Assembly: GCA_903813345.2 (NCBI GenBank)
Contig: CAIIXF020000007.1
Coordinates: 16,166,714 to 16,230,713 of the forward strand
Reading direction: 5' to 3'
DNA from: Owenia fusiformis
Lineage: Eukaryota; Annelida; Polychaeta; Sabellida; Oweniidae
Length of the DNA stretch: 64,000 nucleotides
The position numbers and the translations under genes are program-made. The notes beneath the pieces were generated by a model, which was given only the letters and a program-made list of their open reading frames with translations, did no database searches and was not told where the DNA came from. Below are positions 9,593-61,200 of this stretch, one piece after another; position 1 is the stretch's first letter, and each line of letters starts with the position of its first letter.

Positions 9593-9884
9593 AATAACTC
9601 AAATACCGTTGGCCCGATTTAATTCATATTTTGTACACATATACCCTATGGGGTAGAAGTTCTGCTCGAAAGCCGATTTTCAAAATGGCTGCTCATTTCA
9701 AAATGGCGGCTATTTTAGTGCCGATTTTACAGTAATTTAGGTGCAATATGTAAAACTGTAATAGCAATATGTTTTAAATGTAAAAAAATTCAACAGGACA
9801 ACAAGGACATTAATAATGCTACAAATGTAGATATTAAAGAAGCACATGGCAGCCATCTTGAAAAATGGTCGTCATTTTACGATT

Positions 9885-10540
9885 TTTGCTGTAACTCAAA
9901 AAATAGTGGAGCGATTTTGTTCATATTTGGTATGTGAATACTATAAGTATTGCACACTGTCTAAAGACACTTTTGGTAGAAGGCGGCCATTTTTCAAAAT
10001 GGCCGCCATTCTAACATATTTTACTATAACTCGAAAAGTAGTGGAGCGATTTTGTTCATATTTGGTATGTGAATACTATAAGCATGGCACACTGTCCTAT
10101 GACATTTTTGGTAGAAGGCGGCCACTTTGAAAAAAAATGGCCCCCATTTTAACGTATTTTACTATAACTCGAAAAGTAGTGGAGCGATTTTGTTCATATT
10201 TGGTATGTGAATATACTATAAGCATGGCACACTGTCCTATGACACTTTTGGTAGAAGGCGGCCATTTTGAAAAAATTTTGAAAAATGGCCGCCATTTTAA
10301 CATATTTTACTATAACTCGAAAAGTAGTGGAGCGATTTTGTTCATATTTGGTATGTGAATACTATAAGCATGGCACACTGTCTATTTCTAATGACACTTT
10401 TGGTAGAAGGCGCCATTTTAACGTATTTTACTATAACTCAAAAAGCAGTGGAGCGATTTTGTTCATATTTGATATGTGAATATTTAAGCATGGCACATTG
10501 TCTAATAAAACTTTGGGGAGTAGTCGGCCATTTTGAAAAA
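9885..10540. repeat. Internal minisatellite, ~5 units of 118-149 bp
   Basis: The phrase GTGGAGCGATTTTGTTCATA recurs near 9905, 10042, 10180, 10330 and 10448. Each unit also has GTAGAAGGCGGCCATTTT and AAAATGGCCGCCATTTT. Overlapping short open frames on both strands come from this repeat and are not genes. The 55.4-kb copy of the element has three units, so unit number varies between copies. Confidence 0.85.
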
Positions 10541-16900: not shown

Positions 16901-19900
16901 ATATGATAAGCTTGGGTCAAAAGTAAATCCCAGATGTTTGTGCTCGTGATCTCTGGTAATTTCAACATTGTTTAACTTTGAAACAGAAACATTATCGACT
17001 TTAGATCTGGATGAGTGGAATATCATTTCAGAACTCTTTTCAGGTTTAAACTCCAATTTCCAGGTGTCAGACCATTTTTCAATTTTAATTAGGTTAGATC
17101 TGGCTATTGCATCTACTTCTTGTGGATGCTTAGTAGGTCAAAAGGATGATGTAGAGAAGTGTCATCCGCATAAATATAGCAATGCCCCTCCAGATTGCCT
17201 GGAAGGTCATTAATGTATAAGAGAAATAATATTGGCCCAAGTATTGAGCCCTGGGGGACACCACAATTGATAAAGTCATTTTCAGAATAATTTGAAAGTT
17301 CCCCAGATATCTGTACAGCAATTTTTCTGTTAGTAAGGTAAGATTTGATAATTTTTTGAATTTGCCCTTGGAAGCCATATGCTGAAAGTTTATGAAGTAG
17401 TAGCTTATGTGGTACTCTGTCAAATGCAGCCGCTATATCTAGAAAAATTGTTTTGGAAGCTTTTCCTTGTTCAAATGTGCTCTGAAGAAAATGTTCAATC
17501 GATAAAAGTTGATGAATAGTACTATGACCTGGTAAGAATCCGGACTGATGTTTGAAAAGAAGATTATTGTCAATTAAATGCTTCCTGATTCGATCAGCTA
17601 AAACTTTTTCAAATACTTTAGAGATACAGCTTAAAAGAGTGATAGGTCTATAATTGTTGATGTTCGATTTGTCATTCTTCTTAAAAATTGGGCAAACATT
17701 TCCAATTTTCCAGATATCCGGGTAGGTACACTTTGATAAAAGTTTGTTGAATAAGTTGGCTAAAGGTTTTGAAATGGTATGGGCTGTCAAATTCAACATT
17801 TTGTTGGTGATGTTATCTGGGCCACATGCCTTTGAGGTGTCTAAGGACAAAATTATTTTCATTACCTCGAATTGATCGGTCTGGGCGGAAATGAGTAGAG
17901 AATTAGTCCTAATTGGGAAATGGGGCAATTGATCAAAAGTTGCATCAGTATGATTTTTTGAGGCAAAGAAACTCATAAATCGGTTAGCTATATCAAGGTT
18001 GTTAGATAAGTCGTGTCCAGAGACATCATCATAGATACTAGAAATATCATTTTTATGTAAATTGTTACCAAGGAATGATTTAATTAACCTCCAATAGTTT
18101 TTATCAGATTTATTGAGTTGGTCAATTGAGGAGATAGTTTTGAGTTCATGTGCCTCTTTGGCTTGTTCAATTAGTTGGGAAACTTTAGAAGCTTGTTGAT
18201 TATAATTGAATTTGTTTACTTGATTAGGAGCTTTTGAAAATTTCTTATATAAAACTTTCTTTTTTGATATTTCACGTTTAAGATTATCATTGAACCATGG
18301 CTGGTCATTTGACCTTACAGTGATGATTTTATTTGGAATTTTGGATTTGTATATGTCCGAGAGTTTTTCAATAAAGTTAGAGGTAGCTAAGTCCAAGTCT
18401 GTGTTTCTATCGATAATATCTGTCCATTCAGTATTTCTAATTGCATCATTCAAAGTTTCAAGATTAGCTTCATGGTATTTCCAAATGGTTTTTTTAATAG
18501 GCTTGGACTTAGTCACACCAACTTTAATTTGAGCTACAATTGTGCTGTGGTCGGTTTTTTCAATGGGATCAGTGACATCCCAGTTGTCAAAAATATCTGG
18601 AGAATCGGTCAAAATATGATCAATGCAGGATTTGGAGTGATCAGTTATTCTAGTTGGTTCACTAACAAGTTGTACAAAGTCTTGGTTATCTATGGTTTCT
18701 AAGAGTTTAGTACACAGCATATAAATAAAGAGAGTAAATACAAATAAAAAAAACGCTTTGCATCACATTGTAATTGTTGATTGAAATATGTATTGATTGG
18801 AGTAAACATATCATTGAAATAAATGAATAATTTTCATCAATAGATCTGGTTGATCGCCACAATGCTATACGATATATATATATGCTATATAGAGATGGAT
18901 AAAATTGACTCTGTGCTGTTAGAACAGTGAATCTCTTAAGTCTTTATATGAAATATGAAATATATGAATCAATCTATTCTCAGTATGACATAATTTTGAA
19001 TAACATAATTTTGTTATATTTTTGAATTTTCAGTAATCCTCTCATTTCTACAAACAAAAAACCCAAAAGTTTTCTGCTGGGTGCTTACCACTCCTGGGAA
19101 CCTTCCTAAAAAAGCAACTGCTGTTAAGAACACATGGCTAAAACGTTGCGATGGTGCAATATTTGTCACATCCAATCATACTGACCCTAGTTTTCCTGCC
19201 ATGGCATTAGGCATACCCGAAGGAAGGGACCATTTAAGCGACAAGTCATTTGCAGCATTCAAATATATATACAACAACCATTTAAAAGACTTTGATTGGT
19301 TTTTAAAAGCTGATGATGACACATATGTCATCATGGAAAACCTTAAACATTTCTTACAGAAATTTGACTCAACTGATCCTTTATATTTTGGCCAGTATAT
19401 TGGAAACCAAAAACAAATACCAGTAAAACAGGGATATGCTAGTGGAGGAGCAGGATATGTTTTAAGCCAAGAGGCTCTTAGGCGGATGCAAGAAATAGGT
19501 ACAAATGACACTAAATATCAATGTAGAAAAAATACAGGATATGAGGATGCAGATATAGGAATCTGTCTTGAAAACCTCAATGTGACTTTAGGTGTATCAC
19601 GTGACAATAATAACCAGATAACATTCCATTCATTCAATCCACTAGGGGTATTAAATATGGACCCCATACTAGGCAATATTTACCAATATACCAATGGAAA
19701 CACAAATGTGGGAAAAGAGAAGGTAAGTTTTGGGGTAATCTTGGTGGCACTTTGACATTCTCAGAAAAAATTATATTGAAGGAAAAATATATTTGAATAG
19801 TTACTGCACTCCCAGTAATTTTCTTCAATTTCCTTCAATAAAACCTAAATCTAAGGAATCAAAAGACCACAGTGCTGAAATATATTAAACAAGGCATTAA

Positions 19901-25449: not shown

Positions 25450-28400
25450 ATGCAGGTAATTTATAGTGATTTATATTATAGCAATTGGATATTTGAAATA
25501 GGGGAAGAAAATCAATGGGATTTGCATACATGGCATTACATCAATGTTAATATTTTCAGTGGTCTTATTGGACAGACAAAAGTCTGGTAGGACTGTAAAT
25601 GGATGCAATCACATATAGTGTCCAATTTATTTTGATGATGAAAATATAGAAATATATTTGGAATTCCTAGCCAATGATATGCAGTACCATTAGAAAGCTA
25701 TAATGAACACTTATACATTTGAGTTATATATAAAATCATGAAAATTTAGGTGCATCATCATGCCTTAAACAACTCAGTCATATGAAGGTTAACAGCCTGC
25801 TTGTCAATGTCTATATTTATATATATACATGTAAACTAATAGTAAAGTATACGATTCAATTTTTAAGAAATACCATGGATTCATAAAAACATACAATAGT
25901 AAACAATGAAAAATAGTTAGATAGCAATGTTTAGTATCAGATCATTAATTCACTTTTAGGTCTCCAAATTAATCAACGTCAGGAGAGTATTTCTGGCACT
26001 ACTTTTATTCACCATTGGTTTGTGTGTTATTATGATGCAACTATCAGGACATCATCCGACAGGTATGGTGATTTATATATCCATATTTTCAAAAATTGCT
26101 TCGCTATTTCTACGAGATTTCATTTGTTTTTCAATCAAAGGTAGTTTTAAATATAATTGTAACTTGATACAAGGCATTTACATGCGAATTGTTACCACCT
26201 GCCATTTGTTACACCACTGAAAACCAACTACCAAACACTAACCACTAAATGCCAAACACCAACTGCCGAATACTGTCTACAAAAAAATTGAAGATGTCAC
26301 CATTTCTAGTGGTGACATAAAAGCAAAATGTGGGTTGTGGACCAGAATTGCCAATTTAAATGATTTCCATCAGATTATGGATATGAGCATTAATTTAAAC
26401 AAAAGGCAGTTTTATTAAGTCTGAATATTGTTGACTGATGGAGGGATGGACAGACAGATAGATGAACAGATGGATGAGTGGGCAATTCCAAACATAAGTT
26501 ATTTGATAAAGGACCAGTCATAGTTTTTTAACAATTATTCACTGTTTTATTGAGGATAAATCAGATTCAGTTTTTCAACCAACATTATTTTATAGCTGTT
26601 CTATTGAGATACCAATTTCAAACTTATAAAACCATTTAAAAAATGTATCCTTCGAATAAACAAAATAAAGCTCTGTTCTAAGATTTACCATAATTTCTAT
26701 TTCAGCTTTCAACTTCCTTCGTACAAAAAATCCAAAAGTATTCTGCTGGGTACTAACCACCCCTTGGAACCTCCCTACAAAAGCAACTGCTGTCAAAAAC
26801 ACATGGATAAAACGTTGCGATGGTGCAGTATTTGTCACATCAAATCATACTGACCCAAACTTTCCAACATTGGCATTAAACATAACAGAAGGTCGTAAAT
26901 ACTTGAGTAATAAGTCATTCACAGCATTCAAATATTTATACAATAACCACCTTTCAGACTTTGATTGGTTTTTGAAAGCTGATGATGACACATATGTCAT
27001 CATGGAAAATCTTAAACATTTCTTGAAGGGATTTAACCCAAGTGATCCTTTATATTTTGGCCACTATTTTAGTGGTTATTTTAAAGGCAAATTAAAAGTA
27101 CCAGTAAAACAGGGATATGCTAGTGGAGGAGCAGGATATGTTATAAGCCAAGAGGCTCTTAGGCGCATGCAAGAAATAGGCTCTAAAGACACTAAATACA
27201 AGTGCAGACGAAATACAGGATTCGAAGATGGGGATATAGGAATCTGCCTTGAAAACCTCAATGTTACACTTGGTGTATCACTTGACAATAATAGACAGAT
27301 GACTTTCCATCCATTTAATGTTATAAAAGAACTAAATAAGTCCCCTAAAGAATCCAAGATGTACCAATATATCAATGGAAACATAAGTATAGGAAAAGAG
27401 AAGGTAAGTAAGTCATGGGAATGAACTGAGATTGGGATTTCAATTTTGAATCATTTTTGTATCCTGAGTAAAATGATAATTTCCGAGCTCTTGAAGATTT
27501 GTCTATTTTGGACCTAAAATAAGTGCAAAATAAACATTAAGCAATGGAAAAATCTTAGCTTATTTCTCATGACAAAGAATGATATGAGCAAAAAATAATC
27601 TAAAATTGAAACAACCTATAAACATTTTTATCTAATATCCAAATTTTCCTCTGTTGGTCTCTAAATAAATGATATTCTGATATAATGCATCTTTAACAAG
27701 AGACAAAATCTGACTGGGGATCTGTGGACTCAAGAGGGTTTTTATATACAAGAGAGGCATTACCCATTTAGATTTATATATGTACAATCATTCAATTAAA
27801 TGTCTTATATACAAGCATTAAATAAGTACTCATAAAAATGCTGTAACTTTTTAAGTTTTATATTTCTGACTAATATTTCGACTGTATAATGTTGACTACT
27901 ATACTCATATACTGAGAGAGTTAAAAAAAATCTACTCTAACAGGAAGGTGGTACTGGTTTGAGCCTAAGGTGGTTCATGGTGGATCAGGTCTGCACGAAA
28001 AAAATTCAAAATAACCGATTAAAATGTGAACATTTTCATACTCTTCATAATATTATTTTTGAATCTATTTTGACAGTTGGCAAATTAACACTGGTACTAA
28101 GATACCTTGGCAACACTTATTGATGACATCAAAGAGCAAATTGTAAGGTGGGAATGACATCAAGGAGCAATTCATAGTATAAGAATACAATTACAAGTTA
28201 AGATGAGATCATTGAGAAATGACAATTACACAAATTTAGCAGAAATTATGTCAAAAACAACATGGCTGCTGAACAGAATATGAATCATATTCAGCATCAA
28301 ATTAGAAGCAGCATCAAGTTCTATAAATCTCCAAAATCAAAATAGGATAAAAAAAGGACATTCGTCAAGCTTATGGAAAGGACACTATATCTACACCTGG

Positions 28401-31356: not shown

Positions 31357-34300
31357 ATGCAGGTACAGTCATTAGCAATGGGGAGATTTAGTGTGAAAAA
31401 CAGAAAATTTTATAAATGATCCCATTAAAGGGGCAGTAGCTGTAATTTTGTTCCTAACCAAATGTATAGCTAAGGATTTGTAACTAGCACTTTCAATAGA
31501 TTTTGACATAAACCTTCTTTTTTTGTAATTTTCAAAGCTTTTAAAAATCAAAGACTAGTAAGATTCAATTTGGAACTAGTCATGCTGCTTACAATGTGAG
31601 AAAGTTTTCAAATTTTGATTTCTTTTATTAGGCTGATGCTAAGCTAAGCAAATTACATAAATACAGAAGGATATTTCTGGCACTACTTTTATTCACCATT
31701 GGTTTGTGTGTTATTATGATGCAACAAATAGGACATCATCCGACAGGTATGGTGATTTTAAAAATGTAAATTTACAAAATCACAAATAAAACGCAGATGT
31801 TTTATTTCATGCCTCCCACAGGTAAATGAAATTGATTTTAGATGATCACGTGACCAGGCTATTGCATCTTTATTTTACTATAATATGACAAAAACAAGGT
31901 CAAAATGAAAAACAATCTTAGAATTCTAATCAAAAAGGAAGGTAATGCTTTGCAAACGTTTATATTCTAAGGGCTTCAGTTAATAGAATTTAATGAACAT
32001 TCCCCTTTAATCTCTTCAATTTATAGAATTAACTTCTCTTTATCTCTGACTACTAGAATTAAATTTATTTTCAGCCTCGTTCACCTCGTTACATATAAAA
32101 AGTCCAAGAGTTTTCTGCTGGGTACTAACCACTCCTGGGCACCTCCCTACAAGAGCAACTGCTGTAAGAAACACCTGGCTTAGGCGTTGCGATGGTGCAA
32201 TGTTTGTGACAACAGATTATAATGATCCAAATTTTCCTGTTATGGCATTAAATATTACAGAAGGCAGACAACATTTAAGTAATAAGTCCTTTGCAGCATT
32301 TAAATATTTATATAATCACCATCTTCAAGACTTTGACTGGTTTCTGAAAGCTGATGATGACACATATGTCATTATTGAAAATCTTAAACATTTCTTGAAG
32401 GGATTTAACCCAAGTGATCCTTTGTATTTTGGCCATCATTTTGGAGGCAAAAGAAAAATACCAGTAAAACAGGGATATGCTAGTGGAGGAGCAGGATATG
32501 TTTTAAGCCAAGAGGCTCTTAGGCGCATGCAAGAAATAGGTACAAATGATGCTAAATATCAATGTAGAAAAAATACAGGATATGAGGATGCAGATATTGG
32601 AATCTGTCTTGAAAAGCTCAATGTGACTTTAGGAGTATCACGTGACAATAATAACCAGATGACATTCCATTCATTCCATCTTCTAAAAGAACTTAACAAG
32701 CGTCCCACCCAAGAAAGTATTTACCAATATGTCAACAGAAACATTAAAATTGGAAACCAGAAGGTATGTTATGGGCAAAACATGTGAAAGAAGAAATATT
32801 ATGGAGATTAATATATTGAAGAAAGAATATATTGCCAGGGACTTCAATTGTATGATTTGGGCTTATAGACGAGTAGGAATTCAGAAATAAATCGGAGTTT
32901 AATATTTTTTTGACCCCCACCGAAATTTGGGTATCATTGGAAAGCCCCAATACCATACTTTAGGAATTAGGAAAAATAGAGTTTTCACTCGGGCCGTTGC
33001 TATGGAAATGGGTCTTATAAATAACGACCATTTTTAACAAGCATTAATAAGCAAAAACATGTATTTACATGTATCTTTTTTATTATTCATCAGATAATTA
33101 TGATATGGTTATCAAAGCTTATGATGCCACCTTTACAATGAGGCATAAATTATGTAAATTAGCTCTTTAACATAGCAATTGTGACGTCATAACTGACAAT
33201 TTTCAAAAAATTTTAATGTAAAAATTGATTATGTACATATATAAAGGTCCCATTATTTAAAATCATGATGAATTTTTCCCACTTTTTATATCAATTTGAA
33301 AGAGTATATGATAGCAGCTTTAAAATAATGTATGCAACGTGCCATTTCGGTCCAATAAATTTTTTTATGAGACCAAAGGGTGTAACATGCACAAACAAAA
33401 ATTGTTTTGAAAATGATCTTTTTGAAAGAAATATCAAAAAGAAGGTTCGAGGTATGTTTTATCTTGAGGTATCATTTTCATTTTTCGTCAGATAATTAAA
33501 TGTTTGGTATCAAATAAAAGGTAATGCTTTTTCCTATTTGATAAAGTATAATTTATACAAAATATCTCATAAGCGTTTTAATTATGACGTCATAACTGAC
33601 ATAATTGACACAAAAAGTCAAAGTAATCAGTAATTATTTACAAGGAGGGATTTGATATGGGGAATATCGCAAGGATGATATCTCATCCAAGGTCAAGAGT
33701 AACATATACCACAAAAATCACCTGATGGATGTAAAAACAATAAACAATTTTGGAAATTTTGACAATACATGCATAACATGTACACTCCCCTCCATAAGTT
33801 TGGCAACCTTTTTCCCCCATTGAACTACGTGTTAAAGCCTCTTTACCTTTGAATTTTTATTTACTTAACCTGCGATTAAAATACTTATACTATTGATGGA
33901 AACGTAATTTGACTTTAATTCCAATACCTCCAAATTTTCTAAATTTTTTCCCTCAATTACAATAGGTCGAAAATTGATGATGAATTTGATGAATTTTTGA
34001 AAATCGACATTCCCATGTTAACCAATGGGAAATGGTAGGTTTGCCGCAATTCATATGACAGAATATCCATTAATGTACACTCTTCATTATAATATAACAC
34101 AGAGAAAACTGATGTTTGGGCTAAAAGTAGGCTTTTATTTATTCATTTACTATCAAAACATTAAATATGAGCATTTAGCGTAAATGAACACGGCCTGATT
34201 ATAAAATAACATATAATACATACTGAACTTAAATAACATATCATACATTAGAACGAATGAAATTAAAACACATACAAAGACACACATAAAAAACAATATC

Positions 34301-50900: not shown

Positions 50901-52207
50901 AGGATACTGAAAAATAACAAATAGGTACATCATGTAGCCAAGAAGTTAACATAAACTAGATATTGGAGACTCAAAGTATCACTATATATTTGTTAACTTG
51001 GAAATACCTGAGGGTGGCCAAACATTTTACATCAGAAAATGAGTTCCTGCTATGTGCATCAATCACAGAATAAAATATTCATTCCATTCAACTCAACTAA
51101 AGTAATGTTATATAATGTTATATGAAAAGAACATTGTGTCAAAAATAATAATGATCCTTTTGAATAACATCATTAGAGCAGCCTATTAGATAAATCCAAT
51201 AGTGAGCTAATAAAAATTGTCTTGAGAGTAATTTGTGCTCTCTCATTGTTACATGTATATCTAGCGTACATATAGTAACATAGAGTGGTGTATACCAACC
51301 ATAGGAATAGTGGAGGACTCCCTGCCATGGAGAAATGGGCTATCAGATCAGCCTCTGATGTCATGCCTACAAAACACAAAACAATACATCCATTTACTCT
51401 GAGCAAGTAGCTTCACTCAGATACTCTTAGTTTCTGAGAAAATGTGCCCACATGATAATTTTGAATAAAAAATCGAGAATGTCATTTAGTGTCAACACTG
51501 TGTTGTTAGCATATAGAAATCATTGTGCAGCCTTCAATTGATGAGAGCTAGGCCTGTACAACCAATACTGTTAACAATAAAACTTACTTTTCCATTTCCT
51601 GTACTCAAGCTCAACATTCTGTTTGAGTTGCTGCTTGTCCTCCTTGGGAACAGCATTCTGGTTGAAGAAATCCTGTAGAGCTGGTGGAAAGCATGAGAGG
51701 GTGTGACTGGACCAGCCATGAGGTGTGTGCTTCATTAGGGTGGTCATTATCTCCTTACACCATGATGCAGACATTGTCTCTGAACCTATAAAATTAATAC
51801 TTGTAAAAGAATGAACACAAATTCCAGATACCAATCTCACAGCTTCAAGTTTAAGACATCATTGCTTATCTCAGAAAGTCCGTGATGCTCCTTTGCACAC
51901 TCCCCAAATTCTACAACCCAAAAAGGGGGGTGTTGCTAAATCTCAAACAAATCAGTGTTTGCCATGATTTTCTTGTCTATATTGTTCTATAGAACATGAC
52001 TCTAATGAAGTCTTATTTGCTGAATGCTGATGTCTACCTGTTACTTGCAATGCTCTGGCAAGAGTTAACACCAGTGCTCTGTTCAGTTCCTCAGATTCCC
52101 CTGATAGTAAGGCAAGATTCTTAGACTCATTAAACAATCTTGAAAGCTGTGGTTGTACTTCAGAACTACCAAGGCCAGTGATCAGTCTCAGAGCTGTACT
52201 TTCAACA
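41921..52207 (-). CDS. MED23: MED23, exons of the C-terminal part
   Basis: In transcript order: 52038-52207 (VESTALRLITGLGSSEVQP, ESEELNRALVLTLARA), 51588-51779 (HTLSCFPPALQDFF), 51300-51366 (HFSMAGSPPLFL), 50853-50906, 50072-50180, 49533-49604 (LNDMIWK), 49186-49296 (LFIIQLLLLKP), 48875-48934 (NSPEHWLESNWHERHM), 48057-48158 (LPIYFGNVCLRF), 47634-47733, 45356-45454 (RPITYLYNTLHYYE), 44883-45020 (NWCLSQDYL), 44168-44327 (CDWRFNEFPNPAAHALHATC), 43986-44058 (SWMNAIGLILTALP), 43529-43740, 42968-43088 (LVGPFLQR), 42696-42781 (HYIDPICDF), 41921-42107 (YHIKYMF, then a Pro/Lys-rich tail and stop). Three donors are weak (GTTGGT after 51300, GTATCC after 44883 and after 42696), but phase and homology require them. 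Confidence 0.93.
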
Positions 52208-55200
52208 CTGAAAATATATGGAATTCATTTAAGAGTCTTTGAAAGCTGCAGTTGTACTTCAGAACTACCAAGGCCAGTGATCAGTCTCAGAGCTGTACTT
52301 TCAACACTGAAAATATATGGAATTCATTTGAGAGTCTTTGAAAGCTGCGGTTGTACTTCAGAACTACCAAGGCCAGTGATCAGTCTCAAAGCTGTACTTT
52401 CAACACTGAAAATATATGGAATTCATTAGAGAGTCTTTGAAAGCTGCGGTTGTACTTCAGAACTACCAAGGCCAGTGATCAGTCTCAGAGCTGTACTTTT
52501 AACACTGAAAATATATGGAATTCATTTGAGAGTCTTTGAAATCTGGGGTTGTACTTCAGAACTACCAAGGCCAGTGATCAGTCTCAGAGCTGTACTTTCA
52601 ACACTGAAAATATATGGAATTCATTTGAGAGTCTTTGAAAGCTGGGGTTGTACTTCAAAACTACCAAGGCCAGTGATCAGTCTCAGAGCTGTACTTTCAA
52701 CACTGAAAATATATGGAATTCATTTGAGAGTCTTTGAATGCTGAGGTTGTACTTCAGAACTACCAAGGCCAGTGATCAGTCTCAGAGCTGTACTTTCAAC
52801 ACTGAAAATATATGGAATTCATTTGAGAGTCTTTGAAAGCTGCGGTTGTACTCCAGAACTACCATGGCCAGTAATCAGTCTCAGGGCTGTAGTTTCAACA
52901 CTGAAAACATTCAGAAATAGAAATCATTTCAGTCTTTCAAAGCTTAAAACCATCAAGGATAGAGAAGAATGAATGATGTTACTTACCAAAGATGAAGTTG
53001 ATTCTGATTGGTTTGAGGTACAGATGCCAATGAGTGAAGGTGACTGAGAAGCTGTACTCTGTAATGGGGCTGTATATGGTGAAGACGATAGCTGAACATC
53101 TCCAGCAGGGTGTGAAGAATCCCCCAGGCGTGACTCTTGAACACATTTGGAAGCAGCTGACCTAGATGAACAAAAATGAATGAATGGAGTAAAATTCAAC
53201 ATAGCCAATATGATCATAGAGCATAATTAAAAATAAATTTCAATTTCAAAGTATGATCGCTTGATAATGTTCATCATCTCCTTGTTCCAATCATCATGTT
53301 TACAGTAAAAAAAGGTCGAGAACTCTTTTTTTGTATATACAAAAGTTAATTGAAAGAAGCTATTGAAGGTACTGTACTCACTTATGAATCCTTTGATTCC
53401 GAGAGATTCAATCTCCATATAAACCAATAGTCGACTGTATGTCTCAACCAGGGCTGGAGCTAAGGCAACTGGGGATTTATTCTGCGCCAGCCGGATAACC
53501 TTGCTTACAATGCCATGTATAAGACTGGAAAAGAAGTGAGTTAGTTAGAAGACTTAAGCATGAAAAGCCAAAAAGTGAGGTTCAGTGGAGGTTTAATTAC
53601 AATGAAAATTAAAAATTTGGGAATTATCTTTAGTATTCAAAAGTTTAATTTAATTCCAATTGAAATGGGTTAGAATGACATTCAGTGATGCTATGGATTC
53701 ATTTTTGTTATTCCAAGGGATCTTCTAACATACATTATTGAAAGGAGGATGATGTTTTTGAAAGGGCATTCACTGTTTGAATAGAGCATTGGGAAATAAG
53801 AGGAATGAGTCAAAACATTGTGACTTACCTCATCTTAGCATGGACTGTGAGAGAATCCAACATCCTCATGGGTAGGGGTTGCGTGGGGGAGGATGACTGG
53901 ATGTTGCCTGGCAACATTGTTGTGTTTTGTTGAGTCCCATATATGGTCTCAATGAGGATTCCCATAGGGTGAGAGAAATAATCAGAGTTTGTGCTATCTA
54001 GAATCAAAAGAGCAATTAACCCCCATTAACCATAAAACATTACATGGGCACAGCATTTTGAGAACACATAAATAAAGAATTGAAATACTGAAGAACCTGT
54101 CAAGCCGTATACTTCTGTATAAGCAACACTTCACAGTTTCGTGAGTCATTGAATTTGTGGTAATTTAACCTCTTTAAGTGGACAGCCTCATTAAGTGGAA
54201 CAATTATCAGGGGAACAAATGGTGTTCCACTTACACAGGGTTTACTGTATTCTCTTTTTGTCACACTAAAATTTAAAAGAGAATTGATTGAAGTCTGATT
54301 TAGAGTTTCAATTCAAAGAATTTTGTAAGATGGGATGAATCATTATAAAGACATACTTTAGATTAAAAGTCTGAAATCAATATTAATATACTAGTATACA
54401 AAAGTCTTCCTGTAACTGAAACGATGAGATTTCATTGTAAATAAGTACATGTACATGTACAATTTATGGACTTACAGGCATTGCACAATAGTGCTATTCT
54501 GAAGTCTGTCATAGGAAGAACTCTCTGTTTTATATTTGTTTCCAAAAACCTGTAAAAGAGGGAAAAAACTAAAAGATTATTTTACAATAGCTTATCTTAA
54601 TCATAAATACCTGAAACAGCTGGAGATCACTTGGATGATTCAGAAAGTTTAAAGATATTCTTAATATAATTTCTCGATTGGCTTAAAAAGCTAGTTTAGA
54701 CATTTTTCAATAAAATTAACTTTAAATAAAATCTATTTTGAAGATTTATCTTTATCTTATTTAAAGTTTAACATATCTCATCTTAAAAGACTTGTCTACA
54801 AAATAATCCAAAGAGGTTTAAATCTATAGCCTGCTTTACATTCTGACATTTCTACTTAATTTATTCAGCTCATTCAACTTTTTGTTTTTTAAATGTTATC
54901 TCAGTGCAGGAACCCTTTGTATGTACTTATTATCATTATGTTTATTCATTTTATTCATTATACCTTTATGAACCATTGAACTTGAAGTACTATACTTTGA
55001 GAGATTCATTTATACTAAAACAATTACTTACTCAAGGTGACCTTTAAGTAGGTTAGGCATAGGACGATGTAGTTTAACACAATCAGTCTGCGCCTTTTTA
55101 TCTAGGTGGATCCATATAGATGTCACTGCCATCTTATGTGTACACTGAGCATTGTTTATGTCAGGAACATCTAGAACTGTCTTCTCTGGGTAGAGGAGGT

Positions 55201-58200
55201 CATAGAGTTTCAGTACTGGTAGGAAGTCATTTAACTGAAACAAGTATAAAGGGTATGAAGTAATGATAGGATTTAACTCCTCTAGTCACGTTTTTGAAAC
55301 GATCATACACTCATACATCTATCTTGAACATATACTTTCCAATCTGAATTTGTAAGCCTATATGTATCTCAGTTTTGATTATTAAACCAGAACAACGGCA
55401 ACGCCAAAGCGTAGCGAATCCCATCGAACAGAAATGGCTGGCATTTTTACAAACGAATAGCAAATATCATAAAACAACACACCAGAAAGGCCACCATTTT
55501 CAAAATGGTTGCTCACTAGCCAAGTTGTCATCAGAAGAAATAATATGCTTTTAAGTAGCCACCTCTAAAATTTTTGAAAAATCGCACACGAACTTGTAAA
55601 ATAACACACATAAAAATGGTGGCCATTTTTCAAAATTGCCGACTACTCCCCAAAGTTTTATTAGACAATGTGCCATGCTTAAAGTATTCACATATCAAAT
55701 ATGAACAAAATCGCTCCACTACTTTTCGAGTTATAGTAAAATACGTTAAAATGGCGGCCATTTTTCAAAATTGTTTTCAAAATGGCCGCCTTCTACCAAA
55801 AGTGTCATAGGACAGTGTGCCATGCTTATAGTATTCACATACCAAATATGAACAAAATCGCTCCACTACTTTTCGAGTTATAGTAAAATATGTTAAAATG
55901 GCGGCCATTTTTCAAAATGGCCGCCTTCTACTAAAAGTGTCTTTAGACAGTGTGCAATGCTTATAGTATTCACATACCAAATATGAACAAAATTGCTTCA
56001 CTATTTTTTGAGTTATAGCAAAAATCGTAAAATGACGAGTAAAGGCCGCCATTTTTCAAGATGGCTGCCATGTGCTTCTTTAATATCTACATTTGTAGCA
56101 TTATTAATCTCCTTTATAATTTTTTTACATTTAAAACATATTGCTATTACAGTTTTACATATTACACCTAAATTACTGTAAAATCGGCACTAAAATGGCC
56201 GCCATTTTGAAATGAGCGGCCATTTTGAAAATCGGCTTTCGAGCAGAACTTCTACCCCCATAGGGTATATGTGTACAAAATATGAACAAAATCGGGCCAA
56301 CGGTATTTGAGTTATTGCCCGGACGGACGGACGGACGGACAGACGGACGGATGGACGGACGGACGTACGTACGGACGGACGGACGGAGGCGTTCCCTATA
56401 TCCCTCCGAACTTCGTTCGATGGGATAATCATTACGTGTTATCTCAAACTCCAACAAGGCATTAACATGACAAAATGTCACCACCTTGTTGCTCATAATA
56501 TTATGAGTTCAATCTAAAGTCAGATTTGAACTTCTGAGAACTTGTAGATGATTTTGAAAAAATAAAACTGGTCAATTTGAAGCAAGATAAAAAAGACCTT
56601 TTTGACCTTGAGAAGGTTATTGAAGGTGATATCTTATTTGACCTTCAGAATGTCATTGAAGGTCAAATCTTTAGTCAGATTTGAACTTTTGAGAACTTGT
56701 AGATGATTTTGAAAAAGAGTTGGTCAATTTGAAGCAAGTTGAAAAAAGACCTTTTTGACCTTTCTTGACCTTGAGAAGGTCAGTGAGGGTCAAATCTCAA
56801 ATCTAATGATAGGATTTAACTCATCAAGTCATGTTTTTGAAACTATCATAAACCAATACATCTATTTCGAACATATACTTTTCAATTAGAAATCGTAAGC
56901 ATATATGGATCTCAGTTTTGATTATTAAATCATTACGTGTTATCTCAAACGCATTAACATGACAAAATGTCACCACCTAATTGCTCATAATATTATGAGT
57001 TCAATCTTTAGTCAGATTTGAACTTCTGATAACTTGTAGATGATTTTGAAAAGAATTTAAGTCAATCTAAACAGTATTTGTTAAGTTATTGGAAGTTGTA
57101 AGAATTTGTTACCACTTTTTGGTGGTGACATAAAAATGACTTTCACAGTCAAATTGGTCAATTTGAAGCAAGTTGAAAAAGACCTTTTTGACCTTGAAAA
57201 GGTCACTGAATGTCAAATCTTGAATATAAAGTCAGATTTGAACTTCTGAAAATTTGTAGATAATTTTGAAAAAAATTGAAGTAAGTCTAAGAATTTGTTA
57301 CCACTTTTTGATGGTGACATAAAAATGATTTTCACAATTCAGTAATTAATATTTTTCAATTTTTGATCTTCAAACTAAATTACTTGTACTCGTATATGTA
57401 GAATTTAGTAGGACGCATATTAGGCAGTGGTTTACAATATCCTTACAGGGTTTTTCTGTATGCTGCCAGATATGAACTGTAGTAAAACCCACATGAGATG
57501 ATCTCGTCCTTTTCTTAGTTCCCGTCCTTTCAACTGAAAGTGCAAGATAAAGGAGACAAATAGAGCTTGTCCAAACGCTATTTAATTAGTAAATGCAAAA
57601 GTTGGGATAACCCGGTGTTTACTCATCTTAGAATCAACAGCAGAAAGACAAATAGCATATTATGTATTACAATTTCAATGTATTATTCATTACAAGTACA
57701 TAATAAAATATTTTCATCATAACTTACTACATTATGCTTTCATACCTTACCTTATCATACAATGACATGACCATATGTGGGAAGCTAGCGAATTGAAACA
57801 GAACAAAATAAATGAGCTGACTTGATAAGTGTTGCCATAGTAACTGACTGATTTCTTTCTCCTCTGATGAGTTCCCATCTTCCTCTGTTTTCTCCATGGC
57901 AACTACTACTAGTTCAACTACTTGTTCCTCAAGCACGATGCAACGGTATTTAGTCTGAAAAACATAACATGTAAATTTGTCTCTTGGTTTTCTTTTTAAT
58001 TTTGTTATAGCAACACTAAGGATCTACAACAAGTATAAAGATCTATTATCTCTTTTTCGAATGAAAGTTTTAAGAATGATGTGAGTGTAAAATATAACAG
58101 TATTTTTCATGTTTTAAAACAAATTTTAAGAATAATATTATTTTTCCTACGGCCAATAATTATATCCTAGCCTAAGAATGAGTGTTGCCTGAACTAGCTA

Positions 58201-61200
58201 CTGACTTAAGTGAGTCAAAAAGAAAAAAATGCTTCAAACTATTGAGGGGCTCTTGTATTTTTAATCTTTAACTATGAGCTCCACACATCAAAAAAGATAG
58301 ATATCCTTTATAATATGATAATTCCTCATCTCAGATGCCCCATGTTACCCACATACATGTACCTGTCTATTGAGGCTTAGTATATTGCACACCATGTCCC
58401 TTGAATAAGGCTGTTCCAGCACATATTGCAATAGTTTAGTCTGTGGTTCATACAGCTCCTTATCATAGGGTAATGGCCCAGTTCTGGGGAACTTTAGCTC
58501 TGCAGGGTTTAGTTTCCACATGTTAGCTTGAGAACTGGAGTGACCAACGATTGGTAAGAGACTTGAACGTCCTGAAATTAGTGTCACAGATGCAAACAGA
58601 GATGTTTCAAGTATTACACTCTTGATATAGCGAGAGATATTTGAAGTATTGCAATCCTGATATAGAGAGAGATAAGTGTAGTATTGCACTCTTGATATGA
58701 TATTATGAGAGATATTTGTAGTATTGCACTCTTGATATGATATTATGAGAGATATTTGTAGTATTAAACTCTTGATATAACATAACAAGAGATATTTGAA
58801 GTATTGCACTCTTGATATGATATTATGAGAGATATTTGTAGTATTGCACTCTTGATATAACATAACAAGAGATATTTGAAGTATTGCACTCTTGATATGA
58901 TATTATGAGAGATATTTGTAGTATTGCACTCTTGATATGATATTATGAGAGATATTTGTAGTATTGCACTCTTGATATAACAGAACAAGAGATATTTGTA
59001 GTATTGCACTCTTGATATAGCGAGATATTTGAAGTATTGCAATCTTGATATAGCGAGAGATATTTGTAGCATTGCACTCTTTTTTTTTTTTTTTTTTTTT
59101 ATTCATAGAATTTATTTTACAAATAAAGTACATAAACATTATACACTTGTAGTGGCTTTGCTGAAGGCATTATCAGCCACTTGATTTATAATTGCAGGGT
59201 GAAGAAAAAAGAAAAATTTAAATATGGACTCAAGAGTGAAGTGAGTGGTGGCAGGGAAACCTACACATTTGCACATTTTTCTAAAAATGATGCAGTGAGC
59301 TTGAGAATTTTCAAATTAGTGGATTTAGTTAAGTTTGAATCCCCATAAAGAAATAATTCTACTTTGTCCCTCTTGTGTTTGAATTGAGAATAACCAAAAT
59401 TAAGAAAAGCTAAATTGTTTTCCAACTCTTCTAAGAATGGAGCACGGAGAATACAGGAAAAAATGACATGAATTGTTGTTTCATTTGCATGGCCACAAGA
59501 ACATGCAGGTGAAGTAACGTTTGTAAAATTATGAGAGTATAGATGGGACTTAAAAATTAAGTCACAACGAACCTTGTTAAGTATAATTTCTTGATTTCTT
59601 GAAATATTAAGTTCAGAGGATCGAATAATTGAATTAGATAACTCTTTCTTTGCCCTTGACTTAAATATACTTAAATTTTCAGCTTCTATGAGGGGCTTTG
59701 AAAGGGTATTCCAATCTATCATAGCTTGTAAAATACAGGATCGATGTGAAAATGATGTAATTTTTGTTGGGATTTGGAAAGGAGCAATTCGTCGAACATT
59801 AACTGTATGATGTCTACGAAATCTTTGGAAAATACTTGAAACATATGATGGTAACAAATTATTCTGCGATCTAAATACAAGAATATTGCGGTGATATTTG
59901 CGTCTTTCTGCTAATGATGTCCAATTTAAACAGTTCAAAACTTTAGTACATGATGTACCATGAATGACTCCAGAGCATATGCAGGCTGCCTTATAATAAA
60001 GCTGATCAATTAATTTTAATTTTGATAAGTTTGCACATGAGTAGAGGATATCACAATAGTCAAAAATCGGGAGAACAAATGACTTGAAAATTAGTTCCAA
60101 GTGTCTACCTCCTAATTTCTTTTGGAGTGATCTGAGTGGGTTTAAGTGCTTTTCAACTTTTTTGTATAGTTTTTGCACTCTTGATATAGCGAGAGATATT
60201 TGCACTCTTGATATGATATTATGAGAGATATTTGCAGTATTGCACTCTTGATATGATGATATGAGAGATGTTTATATTATTGCACTCTTGATTATAACGA
60301 GAGACATATGAAGTATTGCACTCTTGAAATTATACAAAGGCAATAATGCAGTATTGCAGTATCAATCATCATTATATCATCCTCACCTGCAGTGGTCAAC
60401 ATCTGGGCAACAGGTCTAAAACTTTGCATAAAGTCAGCCAGATCTTTGCCTAGAATCTAGAAATAATCAAATAAACAACAACTGTACTACATGTAAAATG
60501 TCTAGAGATCAAAACTATTAGCCAATATCTCTACAGAACTTGTAAATCCATATTATTCTTAATATTTTTCAACATTTCAAATAAAAGTTTTGTATAATAT
60601 ATCCAGTTTGCATCTCTTTGAAACACTCATTGATAGGCTTGAAATGTTTTGGAAATCAAGAGGACCTTGGGAATAGCGATGACAGATGAAATGGATACTA
60701 TGGAGAGGCATATAATGAATGTAGATAAAACCTAATTACAAATAGCAGTTTTATCAATGGATGGACCAACAGACAGACGCCAAAGTGGATGACAGATAGC
60801 CTCACTGTGTGAGCCAAAAACAGGTGAGGAAAAATTTGAGTTAAAGGTGATTTTGTACAATTTTGGGGAAGTTATTACTAGCTATACCTCTGCATTATTG
60901 TATTTCAAACTTGAAATACTACTTGATGTATAATACATCTATCATAGACGGCATATTTGGTCAGACAAAACAATTGCAAAAAAAATACATTTTCCAAATT
61001 AAAAATCTGGTCTTCAACTATAGCCTTCCTATCTAGGCCCAAGCTATCAAAATAAAGAATACATGTACATGTATTTCACATAATATATTAGACACTTACC
61101 CAATGAGGCCACAGCTTGTTTGGTTGTTGTATCTTTGTAATTTCATTGATGGCAAAGTAAGCTGGCAGTAAACAAGCATTTCTATTCAATATCAGAAGCA

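Follow-up and report, generated by a model that had tools for sequence, protein, structure and literature searches.

Eight 3' splice sites, each followed by the beginning of the same coding exon, are arranged head to tail within one intron of the MED23 gene of Owenia fusiformis. They lie in the stretch of 64,000 nt analyzed here (further, the window) and form a repeat whose unit holds a MED23 splice site, that is, a minisatellite, and a candidate VNTR, placed over a splice site. We suggest that MED23 is made by joining the donor at 52987 to the last acceptor, behind which the complete exon is found. The array itself is probably a passenger that originated by duplication and is mostly skipped, with some leakage to mRNAs that are likely degraded. 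The coordinates are collected in Table 1.

Table 1. Features of the repeated MED23 splice-site region, in window positions; the fourth column gives the length of the intron if the acceptor were joined to the donor at 52987, and a slash in the motifs marks the exon border.
Feature	Position	Strand	Intron (nt)	Remarks
MED23 exon upstream of the array	52987..53161	-		ends ...CAT CTT TG/gtaagt; strong donor; MED23 match
Intron start	52902..52986	-		3' part (AGCTTTGAAAGACTG...TTTTC) resembles linkers of later units
Whole 99-nt tandem array	52140..52907	-		Tandem Repeats Finder
Unit 1	52833..52901	-	86	acceptor G at 52901; exon copy 52900-52833, decayed
Unit 2, decoy (acceptor plus 68 nt of exon)	52734..52802	-	185	
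Unit 3, decoy	52635..52703	-	284	
Unit 4, decoy	52536..52604	-	383	
Unit 5, decoy	52437..52505	-	482	stop 26 codons on
Unit 6, decoy	52338..52406	-	581	stop 27 codons on
Unit 7, last decoy before the true exon	52239..52307	-	680	exon would be 269 nt
True MED23 exon	52038..52207	-	779	behind the last acceptor, AG end 52208; 170 nt, assuming donor 52038

Tandem Repeats Finder reports the array (52140-52907) with period 99, 7.8 copies, 96% matches, 0% indels and a score of 1417. The TTTTCAG acceptors (n = 8, minus strand) follow each other in exact 99-nt steps, with AG ends at 52901, 52802, 52703, 52604, 52505, 52406, 52307 and 52208, and both results confirm the preliminary description of this DNA, where eight units exactly 99 bp apart had been proposed. 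One unit comprises 68 nt derived from the exon and a 31-nt linker derived from the intron and ending with TTTTCAG. Hence the repetition of an exon segment stands, while its length, previously set at about 75 nt, is reduced to 68 nt. The first 68 nt of the true exon (52207-52140) constitute the repeated portion. Compared to it, the exon copies have two mismatches per unit in units 2–7 and six in unit 1, and in the 20 nt following the copy the number of mismatches is 15 to 17. The decoys had also been called near-identical, which holds for units 2–7 but not for unit 1, and each unit had been credited with a polypyrimidine tract, which in units 2–8 is short and interrupted by A. Depending on the acceptor, the downstream exon would vary from 863 nt (unit 1) to 170 nt (last acceptor). 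Searching the 498-Mb assembly for the array produced one match and hence no second copy, although this does not prove absence.

The gene is identified by sequence matches along its length. The peptide of the two joined exons matches solved MED23 chains at residues 588-698, the best E-value being 2.8e-53 (6h02, which we take to be the human MED23 chain). The PF11573 profile yields 21 matches, in order and on one strand of the contig, with one of the 21 outside the window; profile positions from 91 to 1298 are covered in order, as judged from the matches rather than from a full gene model. Most of the gene occupies the minus strand of the window from approximately 61.2 kb down to 42.7 kb. No second MED23 copy was returned by the PF11573 search of the 498-Mb assembly, which again falls short of a proof of absence.

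When the exon ending at 52987 is joined to the last acceptor (first base 52207), the frame stays open to the end of that exon. Joining it to any of the seven other acceptors leads to a stop 26 codons (52505) or 27 codons (the six others) past the junction, and thus a premature stop follows the use of each decoy (7/7), as in poison exons. This joining bears out the earlier claim that only 52207 gives an open frame and the seven upstream acceptors lead to a stop within about 27 codons; that splicing must pass seven decoys to make MED23 is supported by the layout together with the frames. A decoy inserted as an in-frame additional exon was considered and rejected, since there are no such options when one decoy-derived exon at a time is tried. 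By the same count (zero in-frame options for single added exons), we observe no frame-restoring intron gain by tandem duplication.

To compare the signals, a splice-site table was built from 23 sites, which were themselves given leave-one-out scores (of 24 intron pairs attempted, one had no solution and was dropped). The 23 introns come from six gene loci, 12 of them from MED23, the donor 52038 is itself among the 23, and the sites were picked by score, which makes the comparison rough. Lengths of the sampled introns range from 217 to 2443 nt with the median 330 nt (n = 23), where the end of the 2443-nt intron may be 58571 and not 58656. In an earlier table, trained on its own sites, the array acceptors scored 2.4 (units 2–8) and 3.9 (unit 1) versus 6.3–14.6 for 12 others; that table misplaced the donor 57444, and AGs inside the exon copies (4.2) outranked the true acceptor. 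As the 23 sites were score-picked and the earlier table placed AGs within exon copies ahead of the true acceptor, the splice-site model has little power.

The donor 52987 is strong, outscoring 21 of 23 sampled donors. The downstream donor of the true exon at 52038 (CAG/GTAGAC, chosen by score) is weak, with a score of 4.6 exceeding 4/23. Every unit, as well as the true exon, contains a candidate donor TTG/GTAGTT (ATG/GTAGTT in unit 1). TTG/GTAGTT scores 5.4, above 52038, and outscores 7/23 sampled donors; its use would close an exon of approximately 38 nt and break the frame. The true acceptor, shared in sequence by unit 2, is weak too, as it outscores only three of the 23 sampled acceptors, or six if the intron side alone is taken. 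Units 2–7 repeat the true site from –20 to +3 and hence have the same score, and unit 1 is slightly stronger (7/23; intron side alone, 10/23). With a true site no stronger than the decoys, signal strength cannot choose it, and the choice must come from context.

Branch sites point in the same direction, although as a hint only. The stricter consensus CTRAY is matched in one of eight array units, the decoy 52406 (CTAAT in the preceding linker, its A some 21 nt upstream of the exon), its frequency being 5/23 in sampled acceptors and 16% in random 48-mers. The relaxed consensus YTNAY has no match at –60 to –13 of the true acceptor, while the decoy 52406 and unit 1 have one each. Such matches are present in this region in 21 of 23 sampled acceptors, yet also in 71% of random 48-mers, so that the lack of a match in six of the eight units of the array, among them the true one, is no more than suggestive. 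RNA structure was considered as the selector and rejected: for the whole array z is +1.78, all 20 shuffles reaching an equally good or better fold, and z lies between 0.33 and 0.98 for three stretches, each about 100 nt long, nothing unusual.

We propose that the last acceptor is chosen because it alone has a complete exon and a downstream donor at an ordinary distance (170 nt, versus 269–863 nt for the decoys). Given that the decoys are at least as strong as this acceptor, a fraction of transcripts should be spliced to a decoy; leakage is likeliest at 52307, which lies closest to the exon, or at 52406, whose branch-site match is the best. Such transcripts would run into a stop no more than 27 codons on, and would then be degraded or encode a protein of roughly half length, and the array would be tolerated, probably at some cost in splicing efficiency. 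Several observations run against this model. Decoys 1 and 2 (86 and 185 nt) are nearer to the donor than any sampled intron end (n = 23), but decoys 3 to 5 (284, 383 and 482 nt) fall at the usual intron lengths of the genome, and the true intron (779 nt) is longer than 20 of 23 sampled introns. The in-unit donor outscoring 52038 also disagrees with a clean skipping picture. The lack of a YTNAY match at the true acceptor and the hint that decoy acceptors may have been kept (see below) count against the model too. Further, according to the accessible part of one study, acceptor choice leans upstream overall, which counts against skipping. In the same source, sites closest across the intron are paired in short introns. 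In favor of skipping, it reports that large flanking introns significantly weaken the upstream preference and shift the choice to the sites closest across the exon (PMC9225289).

The same evidence bears on how much the array matters. One reading, which we consider rather doubtful, is that splicing never uses any acceptor but the last, so that MED23 is unaffected by the array. The last site is favored by exon definition and by its complete exon, and in pre-mRNA constructs with duplicated acceptors, as described in the accessible text, splicing uses the distal (last) site only. However, those constructs are spliced very inefficiently, splicing being inhibited when two acceptors are occupied simultaneously (PMC5389562), and the true MED23 acceptor has no advantage in strength over the decoys. 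The opposite reading, the switch on MED23 dose put forward in the preliminary description, would have decoys used under regulation or according to copy number, with MED23 level tuned via degraded transcripts; it appears unlikely. Early stops after all seven decoys are consistent with it, as is the lack of substitutions at –20 to +2 in units 2–8 (see below), and competition is plausible given that both the acceptor and the donor of the true exon are weak. It also has a parallel in the VNTR of ABCA7, where, as far as the available part of the report goes, greater length goes with more skipping of exon 19 and with lower expression; the retention of a single unit, however, which is how the unit donor is used there, does not depend on the length, and only exon skipping changes (PMC5954066). 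The decay of the exon part in unit 1, the ordinary fold of the RNA, and unit states that are private with one exception (units 3 and 4), hence no sign of frequent copy-number exchange, argue against tuning as well. In its graded form, each added 99-nt unit would be one more competitor and productive MED23 mRNA would fall stepwise, with point changes, such as CTAAT before 52406, setting the leakiness of each step; this variant seems improbable.

The array could also be an artefact, with a wrong number of repeats in the assembly, or the sequenced allele could be rare or damaged. There is a single assembly, with no second haplotype found in it. On the other hand, the units carry private variants, the array is located more than 16 Mb inside the contig, and the MED23 exon matches are ordered throughout profile positions 91 to 1298. 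An array of 0.77 kb is short relative to long reads. We therefore regard an artefact as highly improbable. Taken together, the duplicated-acceptor constructs, the published data on intron length and the ABCA7 case make an array that is mostly skipped and somewhat costly the likeliest reading; an effect of its length is possible, but does not follow from them.

The joint between units and both its parent sequences have been identified, and suggest how the array originated. The linker can be aligned with the closing part of the intron directly before unit 1 (AGCTTTGAAAGA..CTGAAATGATTTC...) with local alignment scores of 30 to 35, and for each of the seven tails none of 1000 single-base shuffles is as good; for the 52208 tail without its last eight bases the score is 30, with none of 5000 shuffles as good. 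At the joint, the exon sequence AGCTTTCAA and the intron sequence AGCTTTGAA have 8/9 bases in common (AGCTTT(C/G)AA), and the unit has the C of the exon. This is what a tandem duplication leaves behind when it joins two short similar sequences. Hence, a duplication at short homology most likely copied the intron end, the acceptor and the first 60–68 nt, approximately, of the next exon. The pre-duplication intron would then hold a AGCTTTGAAAGACT-like stretch, followed by a single acceptor. The 86-nt intron before unit 1 would be unusually short if ancestral, but it may equally well have been shortened by a later deletion.

Divergence of the units suggests that the first copy is old, and that the downstream, coding copy was amplified more recently, bringing the count to eight. 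The exon part of unit 1 differs from the consensus of units 2–8 by five substitutions, three of them changing amino acids (S to T, L to H, E to G) and two silent, and its intron tail has also diverged from those of later units. Units 2–8 carry 12 substitutions in total, one or two per unit; a single substituted state is common to units 3 and 4, and each of the others is private, being confined to one unit. With these private states, the array reads as a younger amplification that probably has undergone little exchange since. The variant shared by units 3 and 4 makes unequal crossing-over plausible, but the other, private states give no indication of frequent ongoing exchange.

Traces of selection in the units are faint. 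In the exon-derived part (unit 8 included), five changes alter the protein and five do not, compared to 144 and 55 (plus eight stops) for random single changes, ten changes being too few to decide between them. None of the 12 substitutions in units 2–8 falls at –20 to +2 (P about 0.04, with the region picked after looking), and for the wider region –24 to +2 there are 2/12 substitutions against 3.3 expected; this is a hint that the decoy acceptors may have been kept. Substitutions are clustered elsewhere: four of the 12 coincide at +57, a single codon position (0.0005 if placed at random), with another at the neighboring +56. These positions belong to a CCG proline codon (window 52150-52151 and equivalents), which accumulates 5/12 substitutions of units 2–8, four at the third base and one at the second. 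CCG is retained in units 1, 5 and 6, where it is the only CpG of the unit. The C-to-T and G-to-A changes at this codon fit decay of a methylated CpG, whereas one G-to-T and two G-to-C changes do not.

Other repeats and gene clusters are present in the window. A 40-bp minisatellite (58620-59081 and 60173-60334) abuts another MED23 exon. The best-scoring acceptor of that exon, 58656, is inside the repeat, while by eye 58571, just past the repeat, looks right; given the position of 58656, this second repeat may also supply MED23 with acceptor-like sites. The same 40-bp repeat flanks both sides of a 336-aa frame (59261-60271), which has no Pfam match and by eye resembles a retrotransposon fragment. 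Two related tandem arrays with units of 135–148 bp (AAAATGGCCGCCATTTT...) are located at 9861-10418 and 55613-56034, approximately 45 kb apart, and are oppositely oriented, judging by their consensus units. Three similar open frames on the plus strand (19009-19755, 26669-27424 and 32050-32787) have matches to Fringe-like (PF02434) and Galactosyl_T (PF01762) domains and form a predicted tandem glycosyltransferase cluster near MED23.

Seven acceptors identical from –20 to +3 and an older eighth in one intron, distinguished chiefly by their surroundings, constitute a natural experiment on duplicated splice sites, in which junction counts on one gene would weigh the contributions of donor proximity, exon completeness and single branch-site changes to acceptor choice. 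The array also suggests that a conserved gene can bear such a repeat, the matched exons showing no visible damage.

Among the matches listed in a search of open-access literature (titles and abstract openings), there is no description of a tandem array of an acceptor and a partial exon. Compared to known minisatellites with splice sites, the new feature is that the unit carries an acceptor together with a part of a coding exon. Alternative 3' splice sites and poison exons, the latter triggering decay, are a further parallel: the upstream MED23 acceptors, if used, would add a stop codon. Pre-mRNAs with duplicated 3' splice sites were reportedly studied by Reed and Maniatis in 1986. As in such laboratory pre-mRNAs, in MED23 an upstream acceptor with a truncated exon is opposed to a complete downstream one, but the constructs have two sites, while the array has eight and is natural, residing in a chromosomal gene (PMC5389562, in its accessible part). 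A smaller duplication is described at a donor of ATP11A, where 8 bp are duplicated and the exon is lengthened by 8 bp (PMC9035003, as excerpted). The array also resembles intron gain by tandem genomic duplication, in which a short intragenic duplication copies splice signals; unlike the cases outlined in the available text of these sources (PMC4974935, PMC3443670), it lengthens an existing intron and multiplies its acceptor, with no new in-frame intron found. The closest precedent is the ABCA7 VNTR, in which, again, tandem units with a splice site lie beside a constitutive exon and the use of that site leads to an out-of-frame mRNA, as does retention of a single unit. The differences, as far as the accessible part of that report extends, are that the ABCA7 unit is intronic, is 25 bp long, begins with a splice donor and varies among people, whereas the MED23 unit of 99 nt contains an acceptor and 68 nt of a coding exon and is known from one assembly (PMC5954066).
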